25,185 bases of DNA from positions 1 to 25,185 of the IMG/VR virus record IMGVR_UViG_3300032605_000132; one strand, given 5' to 3'. This document shows positions 3,201-25,185 of the stretch, piece after piece. How positions within the stretch are numbered: the stretch's first letter is position 1; each line of letters begins with the position of its first letter. The translations under genes were made by a program, and so were the position numbers. The stretch comes from a virus. The notes beneath the pieces are model-generated. The model ran no database searches. It was not told the DNA's origin and was given only the letters and a program-made list of their open reading frames with translations.

Positions 3201-3664
3201 CACAGTTGTATCCCCAGAAGTTCACCCATGAGGATGCCGAGGCGCTGGCTCCCATCATGCGCCAGGCGGACATCCGCGACCTGATCGTCCATCAGTCCTC
3301 TCCCAGGGATGCGCTGTTGCAGGTCTTCAATGAGGGAGGGGAAGCGTGGTCAGTTCACTCTGGGCGTGGAATCATTGGGGCTGGAGGGTGGACGCAGCGG
3401 GGGATCGTGTGGTCGCTCTGGGCGGACCTAACCTTCGAGGAGTCCAAGGCGTTAATGCGGACAGTGGTGCCGTGGGCCAGGATTATTGCGATCAGGGCGA
3501 AGCGGCCTCTATCGAATGTCTTCGTCAAGGGCAACCACCAGACGGAGCACTTCCTCCTAGCCACGCGGTGTGTCACCACCTTTCCCCAAGCTGAAATACT
3601 CCATGAGGGGCGGACGTACATCCCCTTCATGCTCAAGCCAATAGAGGACATGCCCCATGTGTGA
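3197..3664 (+). CDS. T7 gp13-like internal virion / assembly protein
   Basis: This 155-aa protein lies between the gp12-like and gp14-like genes, the T7 gp13 position, and has the family's usual size (T7 gp13 is 138 aa). Family-like features are an N-terminal segment with DAEALAPIMRQADIRDL, a central GGWTQRGIVWSLWADLTFEE and a basic C-terminal half (SNVFVKGNHQTEHFLLATR). The overall pattern resembles a degenerate GNAT-type fold, as proposed for this family, but no acetyl-CoA loop is clear, so catalytic activity is not implied. The start overlaps the gp12 stop by ATGA and the end overlaps the gp14-like start by 8 nt. In T7, gp13 is needed for virion assembly. Confidence 0.82.
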   Translation: MTQLYPQKFTHEDAEALAPIMRQADIRDLIVHQSSPRDALLQVFNEGGEAWSVHSGRGIIGAGGWTQRGIVWSLWADLTFEESKALMRTVVPWARIIAIRAKRPLSNVFVKGNHQTEHFLLATRCVTTFPQAEILHEGRTYIPFMLKPIEDMPHV

Positions 3665-4172
3665 CCCCGTATCCCTTGGCATCGCAACGGCGGCGATGGC
3701 TGCAACCCAGTCGGTGGCTTCCTATGTGGGAATGCAGCAGGCCTACTCTGCCAACGTAGAGGCGGCCAACCTGGGCTATGCCAACACCCAGAACTCGCTG
3801 ATGCAGGAGAACCGGCAAGCGGGTGACAAGTTCTCACAGCAGTCTCTGGACAGCGCCATCGCTGCGGCTAAGTCCCAGGGGCAGATCGCCAACGTGGAGA
3901 GCATTCAGGGGGGCGCTTCCTCCTCGGTCATCCAGAATATCAACGCCTCTATGTTCGGCATCGGTCGCCAGACGGCAGCCGAGGGTGCCAACTATGCGGA
4001 CACCCGCGAGCAGATCATGCAGGGGAATGTGGACAGTCAGCTCAAGCGCGAGAGCCAGATCAACAGCGTCCCTCAGGCAAACCCTGTATCGCTGATCCTC
4101 GGTCTGGGCTCCGCAGCCGCCAGTGGCGCGTCCACATATCAAAAGCAAGTCCAGATGGGCGGAGGGTCCTAA
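3657..4172 (+). CDS. T7 gp14-like internal core / DNA-ejection protein
   Basis: This 171-aa protein is in the T7 gp14 position (T7 gp14 is 196 aa). It opens with MCDPVSLGIATAAMAATQSV, the MC-plus-hydrophobic-helix start typical of gp14 homologues. A long helical, Gln/Asn/Ala-rich middle follows (about residues 22-130), then a second small-residue hydrophobic stretch, PVSLILGLGSAAASGAS. In T7, gp14 leaves the capsid first and inserts in the host outer membrane as part of the ejection channel; the two apolar stretches fit that role. AGAGGA lies about 10 nt upstream of the ATG. The gene overlaps the preceding one by 8 nt and is followed after 3 nt by the next core protein. Confidence 0.87.
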   Translation: MCDPVSLGIATAAMAATQSVASYVGMQQAYSANVEAANLGYANTQNSLMQENRQAGDKFSQQSLDSAIAAAKSQGQIANVESIQGGASSSVIQNINASMFGIGRQTAAEGANYADTREQIMQGNVDSQLKRESQINSVPQANPVSLILGLGSAAASGASTYQKQVQMGGGS

Positions 4173-4175
4173 CCG

Positions 4176-6497
4176 ATGGCCGATACAGACAGCCCATTCG
4201 CCGGTAACCAGATGGGCATCCAGGCGGGGCCCGACTTTACCGAGCTGCGCGCTCCCACCACCAACGCTGCTGAGCAGCTTGCCAGCTCCCTTGCCCAGGC
4301 CACTCCGGTGCTCCAGGGGGCGATGGACCAGTACGGGCAGTTCCAGCAACGCAAGATGGCCGAGCAAGCCAAGCGGGACGCCCTTATTACAAATGGGGCA
4401 GGGCTGGCCGATGCGGTGCGGGCGGGCACGATCAAGCCCACTCAGAACCCCTGGTACATGGAAGCTTACCACAGGGAAGCCGCTGCGGTACGCACCAAGT
4501 CGGCCCTCGCTGACCTCCAGGACCAGTCCTCGACGTGGCAGTCCAAGAGCGATCCTGTTGCCTTTCAGAAGCAGTGGAACGAGGAGGTCGGCAAGATCGG
4601 GCAGGGGTTCGCCTCTGATCCGTGGACCCTACAGGGCTTCAACGCTGCGGCCTCTCCGGTCACCTCTCAGGTCATCCAGCAGAACACCGCCGAGAATGTC
4701 CAGCGCATCGAGACCGAGCGGAAGAACAACCTCACCCAGCTCGCTGCGGACGCCCTCTCGGTGAAGCTCCGGGACGGGGCGGGCTATATGACGGCCAATG
4801 ACGCCTACAACGCCCTGACTCCGGCTCGCCAGCAGTGGTACGCTACGGGTGGCAACGACACGGAGTGGCACCAGCTCCTCCAGAACGCAGTCACCTCGGC
4901 GGCCCAGATCAGGCGCGATCCCAACCTCCTCAAGCTCTTGGGCGCCCCGGAGCTGCTGTACGGCCCGAGCAAGGCTGGCGACACGGCGATATATGGCTCA
5001 GGGCTCCTCTCAGGGCCTCTACAGGACCACCCCACGGTGGCCCCCGCTATCCCTACACCCGGCGAGGCTGCACCCGCTCCTGGGGCTCCTGCGGGGCTCA
5101 CCGTGAAGGCCCCTGTGGTGACCAAGCTGCCGATGCCCGTGCAGGGGGCTATCACCTCAGGGTTCGGTCAGCGCACTGCCCCGATCGAGGGCGCCTCCAC
5201 CAACCACAAGGGCATTGACATTGCCGCGCCTGGGGGGACACCCGTCTCGGCCCAGGCCACGGGGAAGGTCGTCTTTGCTGGCAAGGATGGGGGCCTCGGC
5301 AACGCCATCAAGGTGGACTACGGCAACGGGGTGGTGGCCACCTACGGGCACCTGTCGGCGGTGAGTGTCTCCGAGGGAGATGTGGTGGCCGCTGGCCAGG
5401 CTGTGGGTAATGTGGGGCGGACAGGGATTGCTACCGGCAACCACCTCCACTACCAGCTCGAAGTCAACGGCAAGCCGGTGGACCCCCAGACGTTCAACGG
5501 TCAGGTGGGCGGGCACAGTATCCCAACCACCCAGCAGGCGCCCCAGCAGCCCCCCAGCTCAGGCTTCCCCGGTACAGACCGCCCCTACCAGGCGTCCACT
5601 CAGAACCTCCCAGGGAACAACCTGGCGCGGGGACCCTCGCTGCTGGAAATGCCGGGGGTGGCCGGGCAGGCTGACCAGTCGGCGTTCTGGATTACCAGGG
5701 CAGCCGAGGAGGCTCCCATTGCAGCGCTCAATATCCTCAAAGCTCAGAGGGAGTCCCGAGGGTATGCCGCGAGCGATGACCTCGCTCAGCAGTTCGGAAC
5801 GGGGCTCCTGAGTGGCACAGTGTCCCAGGCCCAGATGACGGACTACCTCCACAGCAAGGGCTACTCGGTCCCTGAGATTGGGCTCGCCCTGGGCCAGGTC
5901 CACCAGCAGCTTGTCTCCTCGGTGGGCGTTCAGTCCGCTGTCATGGAGGCCAAGACGCAGGACCCCACCAAGGCCGCTGCGATCCTGGCGCTCACCCGAG
6001 AGGGGGCCACGAATGGGTCCTCCCCTGCGTACTTTGCCAAGGTGGAGTCGGCCCTCAAGAGAGGCGACATCACGGCGGAGGTCGCTACCCAGATGACCCG
6101 AACGGCGATCGATCGGAGCAACACCCAGTTCCAGATGGGGCTGGAGACTGACCGTGACGCCCGCCAGAAACAGGACGATGTGTATCGCATCAAGTTCGAC
6201 AAGTACCGCGAGCTGGAGGATGGCGTCCAGGGGCGCGCCGGAGCGGGGCTGGCCTATATGGGTAAGCTGATTGGTGACCCCCAGATGGCCGCCACCCTCA
6301 CCTCCGATCCGAAGGAACTCGCCAAGCTCAATGCCGTGGGTAAAGCCGCATCGCTGGCCTGGATTGACGCCCACCCGGATGACTTCGATGGGGCCTTGAC
6401 AGCAGCCACAAGAGCGGTCACACAGACGGTTCTGAGCAACCCGATCGTCGCTGCCGGAAGGGCGATGGCCGGTAAGAAGAAACCTCAAGCTAAGTAA
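4176..6497 (+). CDS. Internal core protein (T7 gp15 position) with embedded M23/LytM endopeptidase domain
   Basis: This 773-aa protein is in the gp15 slot (T7 gp15 is 747 aa). Residues 1-250 are helical and Gln/Ala-rich. A Pro/Ala-rich linker (about 290-310) leads to a complete M23 metallopeptidase domain at about 325-440. The zinc and catalytic motifs are intact: H344-x3-D348 (HKGID), YGH with H392, and H-x-H at 423/425 (GNHLHYQL). The C-terminal 330 residues are helical again, as in gp15-like core proteins. M23 enzymes cut peptidoglycan cross-bridges, so this is likely the virion lysin that opens the wall during DNA ejection. In T7 that job belongs to a lytic transglycosylase domain of gp16. 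GGAGG lies upstream of the start. The domain call is firm; gp15 homology outside it is inferred from position, size and composition. Confidence 0.88.
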   Translation: MADTDSPFAGNQMGIQAGPDFTELRAPTTNAAEQLASSLAQATPVLQGAMDQYGQFQQRKMAEQAKRDALITNGAGLADAVRAGTIKPTQNPWYMEAYHREAAAVRTKSALADLQDQSSTWQSKSDPVAFQKQWNEEVGKIGQGFASDPWTLQGFNAAASPVTSQVIQQNTAENVQRIETERKNNLTQLAADALSVKLRDGAGYMTANDAYNALTPARQQWYATGGNDTEWHQLLQNAVTSAAQIRRDPNLLKLLGAPELLYGPSKAGDTAIYGSGLLSGPLQDHPTVAPAIPTPGEAAPAPGAPAGLTVKAPVVTKLPMPVQGAITSGFGQRTAPIEGASTNHKGIDIAAPGGTPVSAQATGKVVFAGKDGGLGNAIKVDYGNGVVATYGHLSAVSVSEGDVVAAGQAVGNVGRTGIATGNHLHYQLEVNGKPVDPQTFNGQVGGHSIPTTQQAPQQPPSSGFPGTDRPYQASTQNLPGNNLARGPSLLEMPGVAGQADQSAFWITRAAEEAPIAALNILKAQRESRGYAASDDLAQQFGTGLLSGTVSQAQMTDYLHSKGYSVPEIGLALGQVHQQLVSSVGVQSAVMEAKTQDPTKAAAILALTREGATNGSSPAYFAKVESALKRGDITAEVATQMTRTAIDRSNTQFQMGLETDRDARQKQDDVYRIKFDKYRELEDGVQGRAGAGLAYMGKLIGDPQMAATLTSDPKELAKLNAVGKAASLAWIDAHPDDFDGALTAATRAVTQTVLSNPIVAAGRAMAGKKKPQAK

Positions 6498-10253: not shown

Positions 10254-10273
10254 TTGTTATAGGACATAACATA

Positions 10274-10298
10274 TGCCACTGGTATCTAGTATAACACT
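10274..10298 (+). promoter_or_regulatory. Candidate phage RNA polymerase promoter, copy 1
   Basis: A 25-bp element, TGCCACTGGTA-T-CTAGTATAACACT, recurs 148 bp downstream with a single difference. Length, same-strand orientation and position before the holin/terminase genes fit a T7-type promoter (T7 has its phi17 promoter at this spot). After AACACT comes a G-rich run (CTCAGGGG), comparable to the CACTATAGGG initiation region of T7 promoters. The orientation is inferred from the downstream genes. No copy was found by eye elsewhere in the window. Confidence 0.5.
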
Positions 10299-10421
10299 CT
10301 CAGGGGTACATCCCTCTATAGGCTCCCCAGAGGGGACCCCTCGTAGAGACCCCCTGACGTATTGGAGGGTATGGGTGCTGCTGGTGGGTAGTGGGGTTCC
10401 TATTGGGATAGCCCTAGTCCG

Positions 10422-10446
10422 TGCCACTGGTAGCTAGTATAACACT
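10422..10446 (+). promoter_or_regulatory. Candidate phage RNA polymerase promoter, copy 2
   Basis: Second copy of the 25-bp element, with G in place of T at position 12 (TGCCACTGGTA-G-CTAG). It continues AACACTAAGGGGG, which is closer than copy 1 to the T7-type CACTATAGGG start region. It lies about 75 bp before the holin-like gene, which has its own AAGGAG site. Confidence 0.5.
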
Positions 10447-10522
10447 AAGGGGGTCACACCTGATAGGTATACCCCTGCCGGGCAGAGAGCGGCAGTAGAC
10501 ATCCCTCTAAGGAGACACTGAT

Positions 10523-10810
10523 ATGACTACCCTTACAGGGCCTAGTATAGGGTATACCCCCCAGGGTAACAGACCCCCCACCCCCAGCCCCACCCAGAGC
10601 CTAGTGTTCATGGTAGGGGAGATGAAGGGTACCCTTGACAGTGTGGCCTCCCACCTCCTACCGAAGCTCAATGAGCATGACCACCGCATCGCCACCCTTG
10701 AGCAATTCCGTGCGAGGGTATATGGCATCTCGGCAGTCGTGGTGATCCTCGTTCCAACCCTCCTCTATCTGGTGACACACAATGGCACACTCCACATCGT
10801 TACCGGCTGA
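10523..10810 (+). CDS. Holin-like small membrane protein (T7 gp17.5 position)
   Basis: This 95-aa protein has a Pro-rich N-terminus, an amphipathic central helix ending in HDHRIATLEQFRARV, and one C-terminal membrane segment at about residues 67-85 (YGISAVVVILVPTLLYLV). It sits between gp16 and the small terminase, exactly where T7 carries its holin gene 17.5, so a role in lysis timing is the leading idea. The HD-RI--LE plus C-terminal membrane helix layout also resembles XhlA/DUF1515-type phage membrane proteins. AAGGAG 8 nt upstream gives a secure start. The end overlaps the next gene by 29 nt. The membrane segment is seen; holin function is inferred. Confidence 0.65.
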   Translation: MTTLTGPSIGYTPQGNRPPTPSPTQSLVFMVGEMKGTLDSVASHLLPKLNEHDHRIATLEQFRARVYGISAVVVILVPTLLYLVTHNGTLHIVTG

Positions 10811-11353: not shown

Positions 11354-13233
11354 ACCCTCTCCGCAACCCGAAGAATTTCCTGTTCAAGGCATGGAGGTCG
11401 CTGGCATTGCCCGATCCCACGCCCTTGCAGTACGACTTCATCGAGTACCTCAACGATGGCCTGGCGTGGAACCAGATCACTGCCGAGTATAAAGCCAGTC
11501 TCCTATCGGGATGTGACCTCGCAGGGGCACGCAAGATACTGTTCGCCTTCCGTGGGGCCGCTAAGACGTATGTCTGCACAACGAACTCCGTCTACCGCCT
11601 CCGCCTCAATCCCCTAGAGGAAGTGTTGGTGGTCTCGGCCACGCATGACTATGCAGGCGCCATCGCCTCCATGGCCTACAACATGATTACCAAGTTCGAG
11701 TGGTTGGCTCCCGACCTCGCGCCTACCGCCGACCAACGGCAATCAGCACTGGCCTTTGATGTGAGGGGGGCTCGCACCGCTTCCAAGGACCCCAGCTTCT
11801 CGGCTGAGGGCATCTTCGGGCAGCTCACGGGTAAGCGTGCCACGATCGTGATCGGGGATGACTTGGAGGTCCCCAACACCTCGGACACCGAGGTCAACAG
11901 AGCTAAACTCCGCCATCGCGTTAGCGAGCTGGGTGGGGCTATCATCAAACCAGGCGGAGACATCTTTCTCCTGGGCACGCCCCAGAACGAGCAGACCATC
12001 TACAAGGAGTACGCCGACGACAAAGGCTATGAACTCCGCATGTACCCCATCATCTACCCCCGCCTGGGTAACTCCGGTGGCGGCGCCGATGATGCCTCCA
12101 AGTACGGCACACGGCTTGCCCCCCTCCTTACCCAGGCGCTGGAAACCAATCCGCTCCTGGCAGGGACCTCCACCGAGCCCGCTCGCTTCACCGAGAGGGA
12201 CATCCTGGCCCGTAAGAACGAATGGGGCAACACCGAGTTCGACCGCCAGTTCCGGCTCTTCATGGATGCAGGCGCAGGCCACGAGCACCCCCTCAAGCTC
12301 AAAGACCTGATCGTGATGGACCTCTCGCCGCCCCTGACCGGGCAGCAACCCAGGGTCATGCTCCCAGCAGAAATCCTCCGCAGCACCCTATACGAACACC
12401 GCGTCAGGGGGCTCTCACTGGACTCCCTCCCAGGTGACGGCTCGGTGTACTTCCCGATGAAGGTGGACATCATGCTGCCAGCGGAGGAGACCATCTGCTG
12501 GGTGGACCCGTCAGGCGAAGGCAAGGATGAGACCACCTGGACCATCATGGCGGGGCAAGGGGGTCGGGTATTCTTCCTGGCACAGGGAGCCTCAAGGGAC
12601 GGCTCATCGGCCCCTGTCTTGGAAGCCATCGCCAAGGACTGCAAGCGCTGGGGCGTCCAGATCGTCAAGGTGGAGAGCAACTTCGGCCAGGGCATGTTCA
12701 GCAGCCTCCTCCGACCCTACCTCATAGCTGCCGGGTGTGAGTGCGCCATCGAGGACATCCGCATAGGGAAAGTCCAGAAGGAAGTCCGCATCATCCAGAC
12801 CCTGGAGCCGATGCTCACCGCCCACCGCCTCGTGGTCAACCGGGAGGTCCTGGAGCGGGACTACCCCGTGATGTACGAGAACGTGGAGGAGGCCAAGCGG
12901 CGCTTCTACAGGCTGACCTACCAGCTCACCCGTATGACCAAGAAGCGGGGGGTCCTCAAGCATGATGACCGCGTGGATGGCCTGGCCGGGGCTGCCGCAC
13001 ACTTCGTAGACCGCATGAAGCGTACCCTGTCCGAGGCTGAGTCTCTGGGGCACGATCGGTGGTTGGAACAGCAGCTTGAACTCCTCAAGGAGGCTATGCG
13101 CAAGAATGGGCAGCCTATCCTCGGGGAAGAGCGAGACCGGGAAGCCGCACCCTTTGGCCGAGAGATTGGCAGGAGGCTGGTAGACCCCACCACCCACAAC
13201 CTACCCTCCACCCACAGGAAGCACACCCAATGA
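11347..13233 (+). CDS. Terminase large subunit (T7 gp19-like ATPase/nuclease)
   Basis: This 628-aa packaging motor is typical of the family (T7 gp19 is 586 aa). The ATPase half shows the Walker A-type loop FRGAAKT (68-74), a Walker B region VIGDD with D171/D172, and the coupling segment FLLGTPQNE (207-215). The RNase H-like nuclease half shows WVDPSGEGKDET with D387, VESNFG with E443 and KHDDRVDGL with D540, D541 and D544. All catalytic acids are present, so the enzyme should be active. The GTG start overlaps the preceding peptide gene by 7 nt, and the stop overlaps the endolysin start (ATGA). Confidence 0.96.
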   Translation: MVDPLRNPKNFLFKAWRSLALPDPTPLQYDFIEYLNDGLAWNQITAEYKASLLSGCDLAGARKILFAFRGAAKTYVCTTNSVYRLRLNPLEEVLVVSATHDYAGAIASMAYNMITKFEWLAPDLAPTADQRQSALAFDVRGARTASKDPSFSAEGIFGQLTGKRATIVIGDDLEVPNTSDTEVNRAKLRHRVSELGGAIIKPGGDIFLLGTPQNEQTIYKEYADDKGYELRMYPIIYPRLGNSGGGADDASKYGTRLAPLLTQALETNPLLAGTSTEPARFTERDILARKNEWGNTEFDRQFRLFMDAGAGHEHPLKLKDLIVMDLSPPLTGQQPRVMLPAEILRSTLYEHRVRGLSLDSLPGDGSVYFPMKVDIMLPAEETICWVDPSGEGKDETTWTIMAGQGGRVFFLAQGASRDGSSAPVLEAIAKDCKRWGVQIVKVESNFGQGMFSSLLRPYLIAAGCECAIEDIRIGKVQKEVRIIQTLEPMLTAHRLVVNREVLERDYPVMYENVEEAKRRFYRLTYQLTRMTKKRGVLKHDDRVDGLAGAAAHFVDRMKRTLSEAESLGHDRWLEQQLELLKEAMRKNGQPILGEERDREAAPFGREIGRRLVDPTTHNLPSTHRKHTQ

Positions 13234-13676
13234 GAACCGTTCCGATCGAAGTCGTCAGGGCCGCCCAACTCGCTCAGGCCCACTACCAGGTACCTGCCTC
13301 GGTCTCCATTGCACAGTGGGCCATAGAGAGCGCCTGGGGTTCGCACTCCCCCGGCAACAACTGCTTCGGCATCAAGGCGATCGACGGCTATGGCACCCAG
13401 ACGTTCATGACCCACGAGGTGATCCGTGGGGTGCGCGAGGAGGTGCCCCAGAAGTTCTGCCGCTTCGACACCCTGGATGAGGCCTTCACGGTCCACGCCA
13501 AACTGCTGTCCGAGAGCCTGACCTACAAGGCGGCCATGCTGGCATTGCCCGATCGGGAGAAGTTCATCAAGCTGATGGCCCCCCACTATGCCACAGACCC
13601 CCTCTATGCTACCAAGCTGACCGGGATCATCGCCTCCAACGGATTGGCCAAGTACGATGCCGCCCCTGGACGCTGA
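13230..13676 (+). CDS. Endolysin, GH73-type N-acetylglucosaminidase
   Basis: This 148-aa single-domain enzyme resembles the glucosaminidase (FlgJ/GH73) family that hydrolyses the peptidoglycan glycan strand. The catalytic segment IAQWAIESAWGSHSPGNNCF, with E33 as the likely acid, is followed by GIKAIDGYGT and a DEAFTVHAKLL segment. The C-terminal APHYATDPLYATKLTGII is the usual closing motif of the domain. It lacks a signal peptide, so it would need the holin-like product or another membrane factor to reach the wall. The start overlaps the terminase stop by ATGA, making it the distal gene of the packaging/lysis operon. T7 uses an amidase (gp3.5) encoded elsewhere. Confidence 0.88.
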   Translation: MRTVPIEVVRAAQLAQAHYQVPASVSIAQWAIESAWGSHSPGNNCFGIKAIDGYGTQTFMTHEVIRGVREEVPQKFCRFDTLDEAFTVHAKLLSESLTYKAAMLALPDREKFIKLMAPHYATDPLYATKLTGIIASNGLAKYDAAPGR

Positions 13677-13698
13677 ACCCTGAAAGGAGCAACCGCTT

Positions 13699-14076
13699 GT
13701 GAAAGCAGAGCACCCCTGGCCGCCCCTCAAGGCAAACGAGCTGCTGGTTCCACCCCTGGGCTGTGGGGCCCCTATCAAGGACCTCGAACGACTCTGGCTG
13801 GAATGCACCTGCTACTATGCCGTGTTCGATGATAACGTGATGGAGGACACCCACTGGGACCGCCTCACGAGAGAACTATGGGAGCGCCAGGGGGAGCTGT
13901 CCCCGTACTTCCGCAACTGTGTCCCGCTGGGCTGCCTGGAGAGTTCCACCGCAAGTGGGATCGAGTGGGAGGTCGGATTGCCCAGGGTGGTAGTCGATGG
14001 GATTATCAATGAGGGCAAAGCGAGGGTCGCCATGTGGAGACACCGAGTGGCTCGCCTCCAACCCCAGAAAAAATAG
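13699..14076 (+). CDS. Hypothetical phage protein with a ligase-Ia-like segment
   Basis: This 125-aa product starts at GTG with AAAGGAG about 10 nt upstream. The function is not recognised. The segment WLECTCYYAVFDDNVMEDT followed by HWDRLTREL resembles the adenylation-proximal Ia motif of NAD-dependent DNA ligases (YY-DDP-I-D-EYD-L-REL), which occurs alone in various phage proteins. The C-terminal SSTASGIEWEVGLPRVV is a second notable stretch. It is the last gene before a 404-bp non-coding region. The comparison with ligase is by pattern only; no other ligase domain is present. Confidence 0.55.
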   Translation: MKAEHPWPPLKANELLVPPLGCGAPIKDLERLWLECTCYYAVFDDNVMEDTHWDRLTRELWERQGELSPYFRNCVPLGCLESSTASGIEWEVGLPRVVVDGIINEGKARVAMWRHRVARLQPQKK

Positions 14077-14480
14077 CACAAATCTGTTTCACCCTCTATA
14101 CGTGGATAACGGGGCGCTGGTCCCCCCTAGGGGGGTCCGCCGTCCATTGCCTGATTCAGGCGCGGCTTGGTGTCCGCTCGATGGCTTCTTAAGCTAGGCG
14201 CACGCGCAACAGGCCTAGGTCCTGCCATCTCAACATATTGGCTAGTCTGTTAAGGGGCTGGCAGGGCTTATTGCGAATGATTCTTAGCTCCCTGGTACGC
14301 ATTGTGCTGCCTGTTGCTGCCTGCCAGACATATCGGGAGGGTGAGATTATTTTGCGGTTGGGGCCTCTCAGGTGCATTTTGTGGGTTTACATGCGGATTA
14401 ATCCATGAGAGAGGTAAGGCACCCTAGGGACTGCACCACTACGGTCACCCACTAGGCACCCACCACTAGGACACCTCACC
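14077..14480. other. 404-bp non-coding region at the expected genome-end junction
   Basis: It lies between the last late gene and the first early gene, where T7-like linear genomes have their terminal repeats and host early promoters. It is visibly less GC-rich than its surroundings. It holds a perfect 14-bp palindrome of C6-TA-G6 (14122-14135), an 8-bp inverted repeat CTGGCAGG/CCTGCCAG (14258-14265 and 14320-14327) and the palindrome GGATTAATCC (14395-14404). Near the downstream end are repeated CCACTAGG words. A weak host-type promoter (TTGTGGG, 10 bp, GATTAATC, about 14379-14402) is possible. A 43-codon frame (14277-14408) and a reverse-strand frame across it look spurious. Confidence 0.6.
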
Positions 14481-14774
14481 ATGAACGCTATCGACAACCT
14501 TATCGCAATCCACGCCAAGCGCACTGTCACAGGGTCAATCTATGAGGCGCCACACCCGGCACCTAAGCCAAAGGCGCCACGGAATAGCCCCTGCTACATG
14601 CTCATAGTAGGTGAAGGCCCTTTTCGCGAGTGCGACCAGATCGTATCAACCGAACGGGAAGCCAAGCGGGAGCGCCGTGACCTGATCGCGATGGATTGCG
14701 GCAAGGTGACAATCAAGCGCTTCGACACATGGGAAGCGGCTTACGCCTATGAGGATAAACTGAGGGGCTATTGA
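14481..14774 (+). CDS. Hypothetical early protein
   Basis: A 97-aa product with no recognised family. It has an N-terminal helix, a Pro/Lys-rich linker (about residues 24-36) and a basic, charged C-terminal half (STEREAKRERRDLIAMDCG then WEAAYAYEDKLRGY). It is the first gene after the presumed genome-end region and so should be expressed earliest from host polymerase. Proteins at this position in T7 relatives often modify host defence or host transcription, but nothing in this sequence shows that. The leader CCACTAGGACACCTCACC resembles that of the gene at 16071. Confidence 0.6.
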   Translation: MNAIDNLIAIHAKRTVTGSIYEAPHPAPKPKAPRNSPCYMLIVGEGPFRECDQIVSTEREAKRERRDLIAMDCGKVTIKRFDTWEAAYAYEDKLRGY

Positions 14775-18289: not shown

Positions 18290-18641
18290 CGGCGAGGGGG
18301 AGCACCTAGACTTCTGGAATTATCCCGACTGGGGGCCTGAGGGGTCTAACAACCTCCGGGACCCCGGTAGGGTGCCCTTCTGGGAGAGACCCTGCAAGGC
18401 ACCTGCCCCTGAGCTTCCTGTTAGGCCTGCCCCTGAGGGTGATCCTTTGGGGGTACTCAGCAAGGGGGTCGGCACTGTGGTTTACTACAGAGGACAGAGG
18501 GTGCGCTCTTGCGTGTACTCTTTCCGGGATGACCTGTACGTACTGCGCCTTGAGGGTGATGCGCTGGCGGACTACTATGAGGTACGCCTACCACTGGCTG
18601 AACTTGTCAGGGGTTACCGCTACATGCCAGCCCCATTCTGA
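18279..18641 (+). CDS. Hypothetical protein, last gene of the early block (TTG start)
   Basis: A 120-aa product, not recognised. The TTG start is supported by AGGAGG 8 nt upstream. The first half is acidic and Pro-rich (FWNYPDWGPEGSNN, APELPVRPAPEGD). The second half looks like a small beta barrel (VVYYRGQRVRSCVYSFRDDL then YVLRLEGDALADYYEVRLPL). It is followed by the terminator at 18683-18716 and so closes the early transcription unit. Confidence 0.58.
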   Translation: MTTNGEGEHLDFWNYPDWGPEGSNNLRDPGRVPFWERPCKAPAPELPVRPAPEGDPLGVLSKGVGTVVYYRGQRVRSCVYSFRDDLYVLRLEGDALADYYEVRLPLAELVRGYRYMPAPF

Positions 18642-18682
18642 TCCCCTAGCAACGGGACCCCCTCACTAGGCCATTGACAAGG

Positions 18683-18716
18683 GCCCCCTAGCAGGATACT
18701 GCCGGGGGGCTTTTCT
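18683..18716 (+). terminator. Rho-independent terminator ending the early gene block
   Basis: GCCCCCTAGCAG pairs with CTGCCGGGGGGC around a GATA loop (one A-C mismatch, one G-T pair). It is immediately followed by TTTTCTT. This should stop host-polymerase transcription of the early genes before the tail genes. A TTGACA word at 18674-18679, 15 bp before GATACT, overlaps the hairpin and could be a weak promoter or chance. Confidence 0.8.
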
Positions 18717-18746
18717 TGTGTATGCGTCTCATAGGAGCCAGTCCCC

Positions 18747-19355
18747 ATGCCATTGCCCTCCCTGTCCACCACGGTCTCCCTCTCTGCGGGATGGACCGAT
18801 CTGACAACCCTCGCAGGCCTGACCCAACTGCCGAACCAGCCCACCAAGGTCAAATGCGTGGACAAAGGGGCGACCATCGGCGTGGTGGGCTCGCTCAGCG
18901 CCTCCGCTCCGGGTGCCTATGCTGCGTATCAGGCCAGCGGGTACAACCAAGAGCAGATCGTCAACGGCTATGCCCACCTGTGGGTCTACGCCTCAGCGAC
19001 CACTAACGTGCTGGTTTCCACGGCAGAGCAAGTCGAAGCGGTGCCCAAGGAGTTCGCCCCTGTAGTGCCTGCGGAAGAGGCTCTGCTTGTGTGGCCCGAC
19101 CCAACTGTCCCGTTCGATGCGCGCAAGTGGGGGTCGGTCTCCATCTGGTGCTTCGTGGCTCCGGCATCTGCGCGGGTCATCAATTGGGGTGACGGTGCGG
19201 CGAACATGATCCCGGCAACCCCAGTGGACAATGCCGCTGCGGGTATCACCACGCCTGTATCCATCTCGGCGGTCGGACGGTTTACTCTGGCAGGTGGCTG
19301 CTGGATTAGCCTCGCTGCGGGCACTGGCACGTTTATGATCGGACGGGGGAACTAA
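18747..19355 (+). CDS. Beta-rich probable tail or structural protein next to the tailspike
   Basis: A 202-aa protein rich in Thr, Val, Ala and Gly, with alternating strand-like segments (NGYAHLWVYASATTNVLVST, GSVSIWCFVAPASARVINWG, SAVGRFTLAGGCWISL) and few charges. This is typical of phage tail, fibre or decoration domains, but it matches no family I can name and lacks the T7 gp17 N-terminal anchor. It is followed after 3 nt by the tailspike-like gene, suggesting joint function, perhaps as adaptor between tail and spike. Base composition resembles the late virion genes rather than the downstream tailspike. AGGAG lies 9 nt before the ATG. Confidence 0.6.
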   Translation: MPLPSLSTTVSLSAGWTDLTTLAGLTQLPNQPTKVKCVDKGATIGVVGSLSASAPGAYAAYQASGYNQEQIVNGYAHLWVYASATTNVLVSTAEQVEAVPKEFAPVVPAEEALLVWPDPTVPFDARKWGSVSIWCFVAPASARVINWGDGAANMIPATPVDNAAAGITTPVSISAVGRFTLAGGCWISLAAGTGTFMIGRGN

Positions 19356-19358
19356 GCC

Positions 19359-21638
19359 ATGGGCAAGATGACAAAAGGGGCTCTCCTGGCAGGGCTCGCA
19401 ATGGGTATTCTCTGTGGGGGGGGCACCGCTTGGGCGAGCACCGATGCGGTCGCTCAGGGGCTTGCGGCCTCCCGCCCACCCAACCCTATCCAAATTTATG
19501 CAAATGCCAATGGCTGCATTTGGGATGGCGCGAGCGGGCATGACGTCGGGCCTTGCATCAACGCGGCAATCGCGCAGGCGGCTGCGCTGGGCGGCGCGGA
19601 AGTCATTGTTCCCTCCATCCCAGGGGGGGTGGCCTACGCAGCAACCAATATCCTGAATACATCGTCTGGCGTGCGTATCCGAGCCGCTGGGTGGGGGCCG
19701 CCGCGCAATGCTTCGGTCAACTCGATCCAGCCAGCGCTCAAGATCATCTATAATGGGAGCGCAGAAGCCGGGCCATTTGTGCAAGTTGTTCCTCTTAGCA
19801 CTTTACCCATTTCCGATGCGGGAATTGTCGGCATTGGCTTTGACTGCAATTCCTTGGTGGACACTTGCGTCAACATTCGTGACGTAACCTATTCTACCTT
19901 TCAATTCGATCAAGGCGGCGCTCGCAAAACCGGGGTCTTGTTCGATACCGGCGTTACTAATCCGGGGACACAGTTTAACGATGTTTGGGTCGCGGCGAAT
20001 AATACCAACCCATCCTATTGCGCGTCCGGCATTGTGCTGGACAAGGGTGTCAGTTCGACCGGTAACACCTCTTACAACCATTTTCACTTGCTCTATGCGG
20101 CCTATGGCTGCGGAGACGGCATTGTGCGCGGTGCGAATGACTCGAACGTCTATGACGTGGTGAGCGCCTATCACTACGGTACTGCAACCAGCGGATCGCC
20201 CGGCATCGATACCAACACCGCTTATACGCCTCCCTCCGGCGTTCCGACCCACAACTACAGCAACGACAACCTCACGCTATTCACAGGTATCCCGTTCTGG
20301 CATCAAGGGTTTACGCAGGGCGCGGTGTGGGCGGCGAATGGTGGCAACGTCGGGACAATGGCCTATGCTCCGGTTACGCTGACAACCAACGCAGCGTCCA
20401 ACACCAGCACATCAACTCTCTCGTTCGCAGCGGTGTCAGGCGTCGTAACAGGCCAAGGGGTGACTTGTGGCGGTGTCACGAGCGGCATCTACCCCAACAC
20501 CTATGTTACGACTGTTTCGGGGACCACGATAGGCTTGCAGCGCTACCCGGTGGCAGGAGGGGGCTTCTCGGGTGTTGCGTCTGGCCAATCATGCACCTTT
20601 GGGCTTTATGTCAATTCGTCGGCAGCACCAGGCCCATACACTATCACCGCGCTATCTGGTTCGACAGTGAGCGTGACCGCATCTGCTGGGGGCACCAGTC
20701 AGGCCAGCGTCCCGATCAGCGGCGGCGCGATCAAGGCAGCGGATTTTACCATTCCTGTGACCGGAACGCCAACGGCGGGGGATTACTGGACACTGACCGT
20801 GGCCACGCCTTCACAGATGAGTCAGACGATCCATACCGACAAGGCGAATAATGTTAGTGATGGTGGTTACGAACAGGGCGCTACCGGTCTTGATACCTTT
20901 GCGGGCCAAAAAGCGTTTTATGGTGACAGCACGCATTGCATGGCATTTTACAGCATGACAGGTGCAGCGTTGTCGGGCCAGGCCTGCAACGGAAATGGCG
21001 GTCTGTTCGGTGGTCAATCAGGCGGGGTTGCTGGCACCAATCCGGTAGGTTGGGGTGGATCAAACAACTATATCCTGTATCCTGCCGTCAATGCCTGTTA
21101 TCTCGGCGGCATCGGCAATACTGTCAGCGGCAATTATAGCTGTATCGTTGGCGGCAATGGCGCAAATGATCGGGGCCGCCGCGCCGTGACTTGTTTTGCT
21201 GCTGGCAGTTTCGCAACACAGGGCGATGCACAAATTTGCACCACTGTTTTGCGGGGGACTGGCGCAAGTGCCACCGCCTTTCGACTTACCAATGATGGCG
21301 CAACGGCAGGAACCGCCAACTGCGTCAACATCCCGAACAACACGTCTTATGCGGTCACCTACTCGGTCCATGTAGTGGACCACACGGGTATCACCACCAA
21401 GGGTGTGACGTGGACCAACGGCACCGGAACGCTTTATCGCGGTGCGAATGCGGCCTCGACGACATGGCTTCCGATCACTTCGCCCGCGTTCGGGTCGTTC
21501 GGCACCGTGACCGGCAGTAGTCTTGCCCTCAGTGCTGACACGACGAACGGCTGTCTATCACTTGTGTTCACGCCACCGACCGGGAATTCGGACACGTTGA
21601 ACGCGGTTGCGCGGGTTGAAACTGTCGAAGTCCAGTAA
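19359..21638 (+). CDS. Tailspike-like right-handed beta-helix protein with signal-peptide-like N-terminus
   Basis: A 759-aa protein. Residues about 6-27 look like a Sec signal (KGALLAGLAMGILCGG then TAWA|S). Residues about 60-110 (VGPCINAAIAQAAALGGAEV then IVP, with a later VRIRAAGWG) follow the pectate-lyase-3/tailspike start pattern (D----I--AI--A---GG-V--P-G-Y). Long beta-helix-like repeats follow. The last 140 residues (GDAQICTTVLRG, NDGATAGTANCVNIPNN, LSADTTNGCLSL, ARVETVEV) resemble a C-terminal domain common at the ends of phage tail proteins in alphaproteobacterial phages. It likely binds or degrades surface polysaccharide. Oddities are the signal peptide and a lower-GC, ATT/TTT-rich codon style unlike the phage's other genes, suggesting recent acquisition. 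No lyase catalytic residues can be assigned. Confidence 0.72.
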   Translation: MGKMTKGALLAGLAMGILCGGGTAWASTDAVAQGLAASRPPNPIQIYANANGCIWDGASGHDVGPCINAAIAQAAALGGAEVIVPSIPGGVAYAATNILNTSSGVRIRAAGWGPPRNASVNSIQPALKIIYNGSAEAGPFVQVVPLSTLPISDAGIVGIGFDCNSLVDTCVNIRDVTYSTFQFDQGGARKTGVLFDTGVTNPGTQFNDVWVAANNTNPSYCASGIVLDKGVSSTGNTSYNHFHLLYAAYGCGDGIVRGANDSNVYDVVSAYHYGTATSGSPGIDTNTAYTPPSGVPTHNYSNDNLTLFTGIPFWHQGFTQGAVWAANGGNVGTMAYAPVTLTTNAASNTSTSTLSFAAVSGVVTGQGVTCGGVTSGIYPNTYVTTVSGTTIGLQRYPVAGGGFSGVASGQSCTFGLYVNSSAAPGPYTITALSGSTVSVTASAGGTSQASVPISGGAIKAADFTIPVTGTPTAGDYWTLTVATPSQMSQTIHTDKANNVSDGGYEQGATGLDTFAGQKAFYGDSTHCMAFYSMTGAALSGQACNGNGGLFGGQSGGVAGTNPVGWGGSNNYILYPAVNACYLGGIGNTVSGNYSCIVGGNGANDRGRRAVTCFAAGSFATQGDAQICTTVLRGTGASATAFRLTNDGATAGTANCVNIPNNTSYAVTYSVHVVDHTGITTKGVTWTNGTGTLYRGANAASTTWLPITSPAFGSFGTVTGSSLALSADTTNGCLSLVFTPPTGNSDTLNAVARVETVEVQ

Positions 21639-21656
21639 CAAGGAGAACCCGGTACC

Positions 21657-22457
21657 GTGACTACCACCCTCGCCCAAGCCCACAAGTTCGCCGCCGACTA
21701 CTGGGACCGCAACGATCGTAACCTCAAAGCCAGGACCCCTGGAATGATGGCCATGCGGGCTCTCCGTTGCGTGTCCCTGCTAGGTGGCCCTGGCAAGCTC
21801 GCCTCCACGCTGTCTCCCAAGGACGGGGCTTCCCTCCTGGTGGCACTCAAGGCCGGGGGTCTCACGCGATCCTCGGTGGTGAGCTACTACTCGGCGTTCC
21901 GCAGGATGCTCGCCCTGAATGGCATCCAGACGGTGGACTGGCCCAAAGCCCCCTCGGCCCCTAGGCAGGTCCGCGATCCTGTGTCAGAGGAACACGTCCA
22001 GGCGCTCCGCGATTGGCTGGCTGCCAGGGGCTGGGATGACACCGCTGCCCTGATCGACCTGATGGGCTCTACCGGGCTCCGCGTGGAGGTGGAAGCCTTG
22101 AACGGGGACTGGCAGGCACGGGGGGACGGCAGGCTGGTGGTTCACTCCGGCAAGGGTGGCCATGCCAGGGTGGTGCCCTACCGAGGTCCTGAGAAGGGCC
22201 CCCTACGCGAGACCCTCAGCGATTTGACCTATGCGGGGCACCTGTGGCGGTGGCGTAAGGGGCTCAAGGAGCTGGGCCTCCCGAGTGACCTCCGCCCACA
22301 TGACCTGCGCCGGAAGTTCGTCAGGGACGTCTATGAGAGGTCGGGCAAGGATATTCGCCTGGCACAAGTCCTGGCCGGGCACTCCGATCCGGGGACCACA
22401 GCGGGTTATATTGGGGCCGATTGGGCTCAGATGGAGGCGGCTTGTGGCACATCCTAA
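21657..22457 (+). CDS. int: Tyrosine recombinase / phage integrase
   Basis: This 266-aa enzyme is on the short side for an integrase but complete. An N-terminal SAM-like DNA-binding part (about 1-100, with LTRSSVVSYYSAFRRML) precedes the catalytic domain. Catalytic residues seen are R142 (GSTGLR), K166 (HSGKGGHAR), H215 and R218 (RPHDLRR), H242 (LAGHSD) and Y251 (TTAGYI). Box I reads TGLRVEVEAL, with the usual Glu displaced by one position. The start is GTG, with AAGGAG about 11 nt upstream and only 18 bp after the tailspike stop. It makes the phage temperate. No att core is recognisable nearby. Confidence 0.93.
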   Translation: MTTTLAQAHKFAADYWDRNDRNLKARTPGMMAMRALRCVSLLGGPGKLASTLSPKDGASLLVALKAGGLTRSSVVSYYSAFRRMLALNGIQTVDWPKAPSAPRQVRDPVSEEHVQALRDWLAARGWDDTAALIDLMGSTGLRVEVEALNGDWQARGDGRLVVHSGKGGHARVVPYRGPEKGPLRETLSDLTYAGHLWRWRKGLKELGLPSDLRPHDLRRKFVRDVYERSGKDIRLAQVLAGHSDPGTTAGYIGADWAQMEAACGTS

Positions 22458-22863: not shown

Positions 22864-23373
22864 ATGAACCAACTTTTCAAACATACCCTGGGCGCAGCCC
22901 TGGCCATGATCGCCTCGCTGGCAATGCCCTTCGCGGCTCTTGCCCAAACCGTCCTGGTGACGCCCACCCCGAACGCGGTCAATTACACCTCGACCGGGAT
23001 CACCAACGGCGCTGCCAACTACACCAACTCGACCACCACCGCCTCCAACATCGTCTCGCTGACGGTGCCTGCCACTCGTGGTCCGGGCACAGCCGGGGAA
23101 ATCGTGGAAGCGTGCTTCGTGGGCGATGCGGTGAAGGCCACGGCCACCTCGGGCACCGTCACGTTCGTGGTCAACGGTACACCGGGCGCGGCCTACCAGA
23201 TCGCTTCCACCGCTGGCCGCTCGGAGCTGAGCCCCTGCTACTGGGTGGCGCGCCCCACCAACGGCTCATTCACTGTGGCCGTCACGGGCGTCAGCGCGGA
23301 CACCAACACCTTCACGGTCTACGGTTCGCAGCTCAAGGTCCAGACCTGGTTCGTCCTCCAGGGCAACAAGTAA
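22864..23373 (+). CDS. Secreted protein with Sec signal peptide; moron-like gene
   Basis: A 169-aa protein starting at ATG 22864 (a TTG at 22840 is rejected as it lies upstream of the ribosome site). The N-terminus, MNQLFKHTLGAALAMIASLA followed by MPFAALAQ|T, is a textbook signal peptide with an A-x-A cleavage site. The mature part is about 140 residues, Thr/Ala/Val/Asn-rich, beta-strand-like, with two Cys (EACFVG and LSPCYW) that could form a disulfide in the periplasm. No family is recognised. It has its own host-type promoter and a strong terminator, between integrase and RNA polymerase, which suggests expression in the lysogen, for example as superinfection exclusion or surface change. 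A virion role is the alternative. Confidence 0.75.
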   Translation: MNQLFKHTLGAALAMIASLAMPFAALAQTVLVTPTPNAVNYTSTGITNGAANYTNSTTTASNIVSLTVPATRGPGTAGEIVEACFVGDAVKATATSGTVTFVVNGTPGAAYQIASTAGRSELSPCYWVARPTNGSFTVAVTGVSADTNTFTVYGSQLKVQTWFVLQGNK

Positions 23374-23398
23374 GCCGTCTCCCCCTGTCGGAGATGGC
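23374..23398 (+). other. RNA hairpin directly after the secreted protein gene
   Basis: GCCGTCTCC pairs with GGAGATGGC around CCCTGTC (9-bp stem with one G-T pair), overlapping the last base of the stop codon. It has no T-run of its own and precedes the U-tract terminator at 23405, forming a tandem 3' structure that could protect the mRNA end. Confidence 0.6.
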
Positions 23399-23404
23399 CT
23401 AAGG

Positions 23405-23441
23405 AAGGGGTGGGTTGCGCGCATGGGCCCGCCCCTTTTTT
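23405..23441 (+). terminator. Rho-independent terminator between the moron-like gene and RNA polymerase
   Basis: AAGGGGTGGG (23405-23414) pairs with CCCGCCCCTT (23428-23437) with a single T-G pair, followed by a run of six T (23436-23441). It insulates the RNA polymerase gene from the upstream transcript, so the polymerase gene needs read-through, antitermination or another promoter. None is obvious in the 28 bp before its start. Confidence 0.87.
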
Positions 23442-23469
23442 ATGAACACGAGTGCCCAGAGGATACCCA

Positions 23470-25185
23470 ATGACACCGATCGAGGCCCAAGAGGAGCGCG
23501 AAGGCGCCCTCCGCAAAGCCGCAGTGGGACGCCGGGCCGATGCTATCCTCAAGGGTCGCTACGGGCCAGTTCTCCGCCGCTGGATTAACGCTGAGGTGGT
23601 CCCTGTGGCCGCCCGGCTCCGGGAAGTCGCAGAGGCGTACACCTTGGGCGATATGGCCTACGCGGCGCAGCTCATCGGCAACCCCACAGCGGAACTCACC
23701 GCAGGCGAACGCCCCCTCCTACCCCTCATGATCTGGTGCCAGCGGGGTCAATCCCTGGGGCGCGGTGATACAGGGGCAGCCACATCCTACGCCGAGGACC
23801 TGTGCCTGGCCTTCATGGCCACCGTCCTCACCAAGCTCTGCCAGTCGAAGGGCGAGGGTGTCCCCCTCACGGCTCTCCTGTCAGCAGCCTCCACCGCGCT
23901 TCGCGACACCGTGCAGGGCCAGTTCGTGGTGTCCGTGCAGGGCGCCGACGCAATGCAGGCCATCCGCGAGAGGCAATCACACTACTGGACCCAGCGCAAG
24001 AGCCTCGCCAGGATCGCCAAGCAGATGCGCGCCCAGGTCAAGCCCCAGCTCCTGGCCGAGGCGAGAGGCGAGACGGTTATTGCCACTAGGGGCCATCGCA
24101 AGGTCATCCAGGTCACCGACAAGGAAGGGGAGCTGCGCCGCCTGGAGCTGCTGCGGACCCCCGATGAGGTTGACTGGGCAGTGATGGACCTGTGCTGGCA
24201 CCCTGAGGAGGACGCTGGGGATAGTCGTCACAGGGGCGTGTGGCTGGCCTTCTCGGGGGTGCTCCTTTACCTGGTGCAGGGGGTGAGTGGGTGGTTCGAC
24301 ATCGGGCACGCATTCAAGTCCTCTACCGGACGGCGGCGCAAGACACGTACCCCTGTGGTGCAACTCAGCGAGGCTTCCCACGCAGCCCTCACTCGCGATG
24401 TGGAACGGTGGGTCGAAAACGCCTTTGACGCCCAGCCCATGCTGGTCCCTCCGCCTGATGGGGATTACCTCACCGTGAAGCACCACAAGGTTACCGGGCA
24501 GCGGCCTCCGAAAGGGATGGTCACCCGAGCAGAGGGCACCTTCGCGTGGACCGAGGGGGCTGTGGCCCTGGCACATTCTCCTTGGCGGGTAAACCCCTGG
24601 GCCCTGGAGAACCCAGCACTGGACACCTCCGATCCCTTCACCGCTATGAAGCTGGCCGCCCACCGCCGCCTCGGGCCTACCCAGGACTTCTACCTCCCAG
24701 TCAACATGGACTTCCGGGGGCGCATCTACTATCGGACCCCCTGGGTGACCCCGCAGTCGAATGATCTGGGGAAAAGTTTGCTTAGTTTTCCGCAGAAAAT
24801 ATCCGAGGGTTCCGACACCTCTTTGTTTGGCGCGACAGGCGATGCACTGGTGATGCATTTTGGCAATTTGTACGGCAACGGGATGGACAAGCAGCCCCTG
24901 GCGGTGAGAGAGCACTGGTTGCAGGACTGGGGCCTGGACGCGGACTGTTCCAAGGCGGAGGAACCCCTGACACTGGCCGCCCACTGGGCGCTCCACAAGC
25001 GGGGCCTCTCCGATTGCATCCCTGTGCAGCTCGATGGTTCCTGCAATGGCCTCCAGCATCTGAGCGCCTTGATGCGTGACGAGGTGGGGGCCGCCCAGGT
25101 GAACCTCGTGGGCACAGGGGACTATCCCGCCGACATCTACCTCCAGGTGGCAGACGCTTCCGGGCAGGAGTATTCCTCCGAGGCT
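23470..25185 (+). CDS. T7-like single-subunit DNA-dependent RNA polymerase (5' part, runs off window)
   Basis: The frame is open from ATG 23470 to the window end: 572 codons, against a T7 polymerase of 883 aa. Signature blocks are VNMDFRGRIYYRTPWVTPQS (411-430), equivalent to T7 YNMDWRGRVYAV--FNPQ, and VQLDGSCNGLQHLSALMRDE (520-539) followed by VGAAQVNL, equivalent to the T7 motif A block. D522 there corresponds to the metal-binding catalytic Asp537 of T7. The N-terminal domain is divergent, as usual. The promoter-specificity loop, second catalytic Asp and C-terminus lie beyond the window. The enzyme would transcribe the late genes, presumably from elements like those at 10274 and 10422. A weak AGGATACCC ribosome site precedes the ATG. 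Confidence 0.95.
   Translation, partial: MTPIEAQEEREGALRKAAVGRRADAILKGRYGPVLRRWINAEVVPVAARLREVAEAYTLGDMAYAAQLIGNPTAELTAGERPLLPLMIWCQRGQSLGRGDTGAATSYAEDLCLAFMATVLTKLCQSKGEGVPLTALLSAASTALRDTVQGQFVVSVQGADAMQAIRERQSHYWTQRKSLARIAKQMRAQVKPQLLAEARGETVIATRGHRKVIQVTDKEGELRRLELLRTPDEVDWAVMDLCWHPEEDAGDSRHRGVWLAFSGVLLYLVQGVSGWFDIGHAFKSSTGRRRKTRTPVVQLSEASHAALTRDVERWVENAFDAQPMLVPPPDGDYLTVKHHKVTGQRPPKGMVTRAEGTFAWTEGAVALAHSPWRVNPWALENPALDTSDPFTAMKLAAHRRLGPTQDFYLPVNMDFRGRIYYRTPWVTPQSNDLGKSLLSFPQKISEGSDTSLFGATGDALVMHFGNLYGNGMDKQPLAVREHWLQDWGLDADCSKAEEPLTLAAHWALHKRGLSDCIPVQLDGSCNGLQHLSALMRDEVGAAQVNLVGTGDYPADIYLQVADASGQEYSSEA

Follow-up and report, generated by a model that had tools for sequence, protein, structure and literature searches.

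A tailspike-family protein with a predicted Sec signal peptide, encoded beside the integrase of a T7-like virus record

The usual understanding is that the spikes of tailed phages fold, and are attached, within the cytoplasm. What should be made, therefore, of a tailspike-like protein that is encoded beside an integrase and opens with a predicted signal peptide? The question is raised by the virus record IMGVR_UViG_3300032605_000132. The window (G000) is this complete 25,185-base record, itself a genome fragment; the search for another fibre covers these bases, and one may lie elsewhere in the genome. Two open reading frames (ORFs), for proteins of 202 and 759 amino acids (aa), sit between its early genes and its integrase, upstream of a T7-type RNA polymerase. 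In our reading, the 759-aa protein (hereafter the spike) is probably a horizontally acquired tailspike that, to judge from its sequence, would be exported by Sec, matured in the periplasm and active after lysis, either on virions or free. The original prediction had described the two ORFs as a tailspike module displaced from the position of gene 17 and had overlooked the signal peptide of the spike, which changes the likely role of the protein. The spike and its parts are as follows:

19359..21638, + strand: 759-aa spike ORF, of the tailspike family by its homologues, modelled beta-helix and C-terminal domain
19359..19436, + strand: predicted Sec-type signal peptide of the spike, MGKMTKGALLAGLAMGILCGGGTAWA, followed by STD (mature start STDAV), called by a home-made rule
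19437..20876, + strand: portion of the mature spike predicted by AlphaFold and VIA-align to be a right-handed beta-helix (residues 1–480 of the model)
21129..21635, + strand: C-terminal domain of the spike (ending FTPPTGNSDT...VARVETVEVQ), matched by phmmer to L138, L120, L099, L119, L115, L130, L123 and the genome locus L149

That the 759-aa protein is tailspike-like, as first predicted, is borne out by its homologues, by a low-confidence beta-helix model and by a C-terminal domain shared with other phages. Relatives were found through a pattern of the C-terminal motif, which matched 54 viral contigs, and phmmer confirmed homologues in seven of them (L099, L115, L119, L120, L123, L130 and L138); a separate search found a homologue in one of 398 bacterial genomes. 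The matches to L119 (E 8e-210) and L138 (E 7e-109) cover nearly the whole mature protein, and L119 and L130 look like one phage, since their match figures are identical. Moreover, the C-terminal domain is carried by a PF12708 tail protein in L123 and by a protein of L164 with a PF12708 match over the cut-off (E 3.2e-10), while its form in L120 matches, at E 8e-8, the putative tail fibre of a cyanophage, Cy-LDV1. The spike is thus homologous in sequence to phage tail proteins, and its membership of the tailspike family is supported. Searched whole or in thirds, it has no family match in Pfam, PHROGs or NCBIfam beyond phrog_14442 “tail protein” (E 0.01), and PDB sequence searches gave no useful match. 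A tblastn search of 50,697 phage records and 72,556 plasmid records gave zero matches, and piecewise searches gave chance-level matches only; zero of 385 genomes from a single class gave a match, a whole-protein pattern run over viral contigs gave no relative, and scans of the viral contigs with the integrase and with the L009 fibre gave no new one.

For the fold, an AlphaFold model from seven sequences reached a predicted local distance difference test score (pLDDT) of 56.9, i.e., low confidence, and a single-sequence model only 34.6. By VIA-align, this weak model has its best Z (11.8) to CBA120 tailspike 2 (210 residues, 3.9 A), with several tailspikes and beta-helix pectin/alginate enzymes tied or within about 1–2 Z, and the first four ranks of Foldseek are tailspikes and phage fibres, despite E-values no better than 9.4e-3. 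Because of these rankings, the modelled fold is probably a beta-helix.

The N-terminus of the spike fits rule-based criteria for Sec export and signal peptidase I cleavage (basic n-region, hydrophobic core, AxA site), as only two of the 29 window proteins do, the other being a protein of 169 aa. Since no in-frame ATG, GTG or TTG lies between codons 15 and 91, the frame cannot begin just after the signal with a common start; common start codons are also missing between codons 1 and 42 of L009 and between codons 15 and 99 of L138. Counting the window together with the viral contigs, seven distinct proteins carry the C-terminal domain, and five of them bear a signal peptide (the window spike, L119 = L130, L138, L120 and G748/L164), and the spikes of L115 and L123 have different N-termini and no signal peptide. 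The signal peptides of L119, L138, L120 and L164 each differ in sequence; between the window and L119, 375 of 728 mature positions are identical, whereas of the 19 signal positions that align only 7 are; the succession of n-region, hydrophobic core and AxA is kept in both. A short n-region, 10–15 hydrophobic residues and an AxA site indeed recur across unrelated N-termini. Applied to the ORFs of at least 100 aa in eight stretches, the same rule passed 10 of 94, nine of these being spikes, fibres or their neighbours and the tenth spanin-like by eye; the L164 spike was missed there because its start lies outside the scanned stretch.

Finally, the distant relative L009 has, at 12634–13353 in slot 17 (the position after gp16), a fibre in which a signal peptide directly precedes the PF03906 anchor (E 3.4e-11) and a spike-like start follows it, the contig ending within the fibre. 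That slot-17 signal peptides are general in T7-like phages was considered and rejected: only L009 has one among 17 gp16-selected loci, eight of which hold no + strand ORF of at least 100 aa in the 8 kb that follow the match. In loci selected by gp12 and in bacterial loci, no anchor-bearing ORF has a convincing signal peptide, and a flag on L052 was discounted, as it rests on an implausible upstream start. On the strength of these sequence patterns, we regard export of the spike as supported.

Exported disulfide-bonded proteins tend toward paired cysteines. The mature spike has 16 cysteines, against 9 in the 3401 residues of gp11–16, and this even, disulfide-like content has parallels in the other signal-bearing proteins. 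In a first count, mature cysteine numbers were even in 10 of 10 signal-bearing and 11 of 33 other proteins (Fisher 1.8e-4); pooled with three later signal-bearing cases from another part of G748, one of them without a clear AxA site, the figures became 13/13 and 12/38 (one-sided Fisher 1.1e-5), the truncated L009 fibre being omitted. Even mature cysteines are as expected of disulfide-bonded exported proteins.

Codon usage sets the spike apart from the other window genes, none of which deviates as strongly (z -9.5). Its neighbours are not outliers: z is -0.7 for the 202-aa gene, 1.5 for the integrase and 2.8 for the 169-aa gene, which resembles late genes. This value is partly an effect of length, since early genes deviate too (to z -4.9). 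In mean log-likelihood per codon, the spike is the lowest of the 29 genes (-1.269), a 69-aa early gene coming next (-1.262). The deviation extends along the entire spike gene, the integrase on its 3' side being normal and the 202-aa gene on its 5' side mildly low, and horizontal acquisition appears to be the best reading.

Did the spike come from slot 17? Much of the original prediction stands here. The slot after gp16 is empty in so far as the ORF list shows zero ORFs of at least 60 aa wholly inside its 269 nucleotides (10254–10522; shorter ORFs are outside its scope); the ORFs at 18747–19355 and 19359–21638 do lie between the early block and a PF00589 integrase; and neither protein has the gp17 tail anchor, both a search with PF03906 (the gp17 N-terminal domain) and an anchor hidden Markov model being negative. 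This nine-sequence model, which recovered the fibres of relatives, matches no window ORF of at least 60 aa, and the idea that gp17 had moved intact was consequently rejected. The notion of a displaced module thus keeps its tailspike family, its empty slot and its place beside the integrase, but loses the relocation itself, which is not demonstrable given the missing anchor, the foreign codon usage and a slot that is empty in L003 too. L003 is the closest relative by gp16 (39%) and terminase (65%), and no fibre lies between these two genes in it; other T7-like loci retain a gp17-anchored fibre in slot 17. The window slot may therefore have emptied before the spike arrived.

The homologues also inform on the setting in which signal-bearing spikes occur. 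In G748 (L164), an internal virion protein of 1779 aa (phrog_6651, E 2.4e-26) is immediately followed by three consecutive signal-bearing ORFs; the second has a sub-threshold GDSL match and the third is the PF12708 spike with the shared C-terminal domain, while three more signal-bearing ORFs lie upstream, near tail genes. In G745, a module of late appearance ends with the spike, which comes after ORFs resembling endolysin, holin and lipoprotein genes and has a small signal-bearing ORF ahead of it; in G746, it is flanked by terminase-like and portal-like ORFs; and in G747, a spike of 1060 aa lies near a baseplate-like ORF (functions by eye in all three). L115 has a signal-bearing GH16 glycosidase (2743–4104; PF00722, E 6.1e-8) after lysis-type genes. 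As a separate observation, the virion gene cluster of the single phage G748 (L168:5306–10722, L164:10440–15519) encodes at least six signal-bearing proteins, one of which, of 578 aa, has an end that looks S74-type chaperone-like by eye, a match that Pfam did not report.

The course of events that we propose is the following. Once expressed, the spike would be exported by Sec to the periplasm, where its signal would be cleaved, as the sequence suggests, and where it would fold oxidatively with disulfides, as its cysteines suggest. Lysis would release it, and it would then bind or cut surface glycans, most likely docked on virions, perhaps via the 202-aa neighbour, a possible adaptor, or otherwise as a free depolymerase. 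Docking is argued from L009, where a signal and a gp17 anchor occur together, and from the virion cluster of G748; free action is argued from the GH16 enzyme of L115 and from the lack of an anchor on the window spike. Signal cleavage, disulfides, glycan activity, timing and docking are all steps that we infer. A wider proposal, which we make tentatively, is that in some phages spikes or fibres pass through Sec, acquire disulfides as they mature in the periplasm and join the virions only once lysis has brought periplasm and cytoplasm together, an assembly in two compartments. With the same reserve, L009 and G748 might then be the clearest cases, and the window spike the same kind of part beside an integrase.

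Several points weigh against an exported, periplasm-matured tailspike. The signal peptides were called by a home-made rule (basic n-region, hydrophobic core, AxA) and not by a trained predictor, and L009, truncated by its contig end, is the sole convincing signal-bearing gp17-anchored fibre among 60 anchor-bearing ORFs, a set with several duplicate records (L030 is the L009 record again). The controls for cysteine parity were of our own choosing and the idea arose after the first counts had been seen; moreover, the signal-less spikes of L115 (6 cysteines) and L123 (4) are also even, at lower cysteine density, and adding these two, which were not among the controls, brings the others to 14/40. 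Foldseek gives no PDB match at E ≤0.001 (best 9.4e-3) for a model that is itself weak (pLDDT 56.9). Finally, no recognised virion-docking domain was found on the window spike, and its gene lies in the early/integrase region, unlike its late-module homologues.

The other interpretations depend in part on what surrounds the spike:

18676..18725, + strand: terminator-like hairpin just upstream of the 202-aa/spike module, a GC-rich stem followed by TTTTCTT (-28.4 kcal/mol, z -4.2)
18747..19355, + strand: 202-aa protein, without signal peptide, with 3 cysteines, labelled beta-rich in the original prediction
21657..22457, + strand: tyrosine integrase (PF00589, E 1.2e-10; phrog_1, E 2.4e-16)
22864..23373, + strand: 169-aa protein with a predicted signal peptide (ending PFAALA, then QTV; home-made rule), across the integrase from the spike
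23392..23446, + strand: terminator-like hairpin, then TTTTTT, 3' of the 169-aa gene (-26 kcal/mol, z -2.5)
23470..25185, + strand: T7-type RNA polymerase (PF00940, E 2.2e-18; phrog_414, E 4.5e-39), running off the end of the record

The spike and the 169-aa protein might form a moron, or lysogenic-conversion cassette, exported by lysogens, where it would change the host surface or prevent superinfection without ever being part of virions. Signal-bearing genes on both sides of the integrase leave room for such a role, one hairpin precedes the module and another lies 3' of the 169-aa gene, the codon usage of the spike is foreign (z -9.5), it has no gp17 anchor, and the exported bacterial protein WceF is proposed, in excerpts of PMC7949094, to act on exopolysaccharide of its own cell. 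We nevertheless doubt it, as homologous signal-bearing spikes lie in late virion/lysis clusters of other phages, the codon usage of the 169-aa gene is that of late genes, and there is no excess of promoters: the consensus promoter/terminator scan of the window is at or below chance (4 promoters found, 4.4 expected) and lists neither of the two hairpins. A possibility of the same order is that the spike is a soluble depolymerase, exported, released by lysis and clearing capsule or debris for the progeny, but never bound to virions. The signal-bearing GH16 enzyme after lysis-type genes in L115 fits this, as does the spike that follows endolysin-, holin- and lipoprotein-like ORFs (by eye) in G745, whereas the signal-bearing gp17 anchor of L009 and the three signal-bearing ORFs at the slot-17 position of G748 point to virions.

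It is less likely still that the spike is simply a virion tailspike assembled in the cytoplasm, its hydrophobic N-terminus remaining in place as an anchor or insertion segment instead of being cleaved off as a signal, and its gene merely lying away from slot 17. At face value, the empty slot, the homologues in virion gene clusters and the signal-less spikes of L115 and L123, which share the C-terminal domain and resemble ordinary tail proteins, would suit this account; against it stand the n-region, hydrophobic and AxA pattern on unrelated N-termini, the even cysteine counts and the lack of a known docking domain. As for an artefact, in which the hydrophobic N-terminus would come from a wrong start codon or from chance, the home-made predictor and a signal-peptide case built on sequence speak for it, yet the start-codon-free intervals in the spike, L009 and L138 and the recurrence of the pattern in several independent phages make it very improbable.

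Coming back to an exported tailspike, how does the spike compare with known systems? Like the beta-helix tailspikes CBA120 TSP2, HK620, Sf6 and LKA1, to which its model aligns with Z of about 10–12, it has a beta-helix, predicted over model residues about 18–480, and a C-terminal domain that links it to phage tail proteins; unlike them, it has a signal peptide where a head-binding or anchor domain is expected, many cysteines and a gene next to an integrase. The L009 fibre resembles T7 gp17 by its PF03906 anchor and its place in slot 17, but has a signal peptide ahead of the anchor, whereas the window spike has no such anchor and lies outside the slot. Exported tailspike-like enzymes are already known in bacteria: according to the parts of PMC7949094 that bear on it, WceF of Pantoea stewartii is an exported tailspike-like beta-helix enzyme with a Tat signal, encoded in a bacterial exopolysaccharide cluster. 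WceF (6tgf) and the spike have in common a beta-helix and an export signal, both of them predicted in the spike (VIA-align Z 8.8 to the spike model), but MGKMTKGALLAGLAMGILCGGGTAWA has no twin-arginine and the spike has a phage context instead of an exopolysaccharide cluster. Searches of open PubMed Central text turned up nothing on the export of tail spikes by phages, WceF being the only such protein and bacterial, which is weak evidence of absence; the signal peptides described in PMC8951688 and PMC10820202 belong to endolysins, as far as the relevant extracts go.

If spikes are indeed exported by Sec, disulfide-stabilised receptor-binding proteins, docking after lysis and free exported depolymerases would all become testable, and a signal peptide would serve as a cue to receptor-binding proteins that escape family models, the window spike having no PHROG or Pfam match. 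Swapping in a spike beside the integrase would give temperate T7-like phages a way of changing their host range, and similarly tagged tail proteins in related phages may hint at maturation of receptor-binding proteins outside the cytoplasm.

Gene order in other integrase-bearing phages differs from that of the window. In LUZ100, a temperate T7-like phage, the integrase has the early genes on one side and the RNA polymerase on the other, and a regulator lies just before it, according to passages of PMC10134795. Lo5R7ANS, likewise temperate and T7-like, whose integrase and slot-17 fibre are both annotated and whose regulator before the integrase is taken from annotation, shares with LUZ100 and the window the place of the integrase. 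In both phages, and in L005 and L006 (prophage loci, with integrases judged by eye and fibres by their N-termini), slot 17 still holds a gp17-anchored fibre, unlike that of the window. At the pre-integrase position (18641–21657), the window has the spike where LUZ100 and Lo5R7ANS have the regulator; the early genes were not searched for a moved regulator. For the 202-aa protein, searches of PHROGs, Pfam, NCBIfam, PDB sequences and phages gave nothing significant, and for the mature part of the 169-aa protein there was no family match in PHROGs, Pfam or NCBIfam.

Slot 17 itself holds a short repeat:

10254..10522, no strand: empty gene-17 slot; gp16 ends at 10253 and a small membrane-protein ORF starts at 10523 (+), L003 being arranged alike
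10276..10298, + strand: first exact copy of the 23-nucleotide repeat CCACTGGTANCTAGTATAACACT, candidate promoter of the phage RNA polymerase
10424..10446, + strand: second exact copy of CCACTGGTANCTAGTATAACACT, likewise a candidate promoter

Two exact copies compare with 0 expected from shuffles, and the window has no further copies at up to 3 mismatches; a degenerate form lies in slot 17 of L003 (3843–3864), the sole match across 166 fetched loci. Gene 17 of T7 is immediately preceded by a late promoter, and for this reason phage-polymerase promoters are, by analogy, a fair guess for these repeats.

For the rest of the window, the genes run from tail tubular A (PF17212), tail tubular B (by homology to L009 and Lo5R7ANS) and an internal virion protein (phrog_308) to ORFs at the gp14, gp15 and gp16 positions (the last by homology), then, after the gap and small ORFs, to the large terminase (phrog_38), a glucosaminidase (PF01832), the early genes, the 202-aa and 759-aa ORFs, the integrase, a small ORF, the 169-aa ORF and the RNA polymerase, truncated at the record end. 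No tRNA was detected in the window, and Rfam gave no match to it. The internal virion protein at the gp15 position (4176–6497) has a peptidase M23 domain (PF01551, E 1.4e-31), likely an ejection-associated peptidoglycan endopeptidase to judge from this match. A 125-aa ORF (13699–14076) 3' of the endolysin is kept in L002 at 54% identity, and after its counterpart there L002 has a fibre-like ORF (3609–4304) without family match. At 13233–14481, the terminase continues into the early genes, the record thus spanning the genome ends of linear T7-like records, a continuity that fits a circular, concatemeric or prophage-derived assembly.

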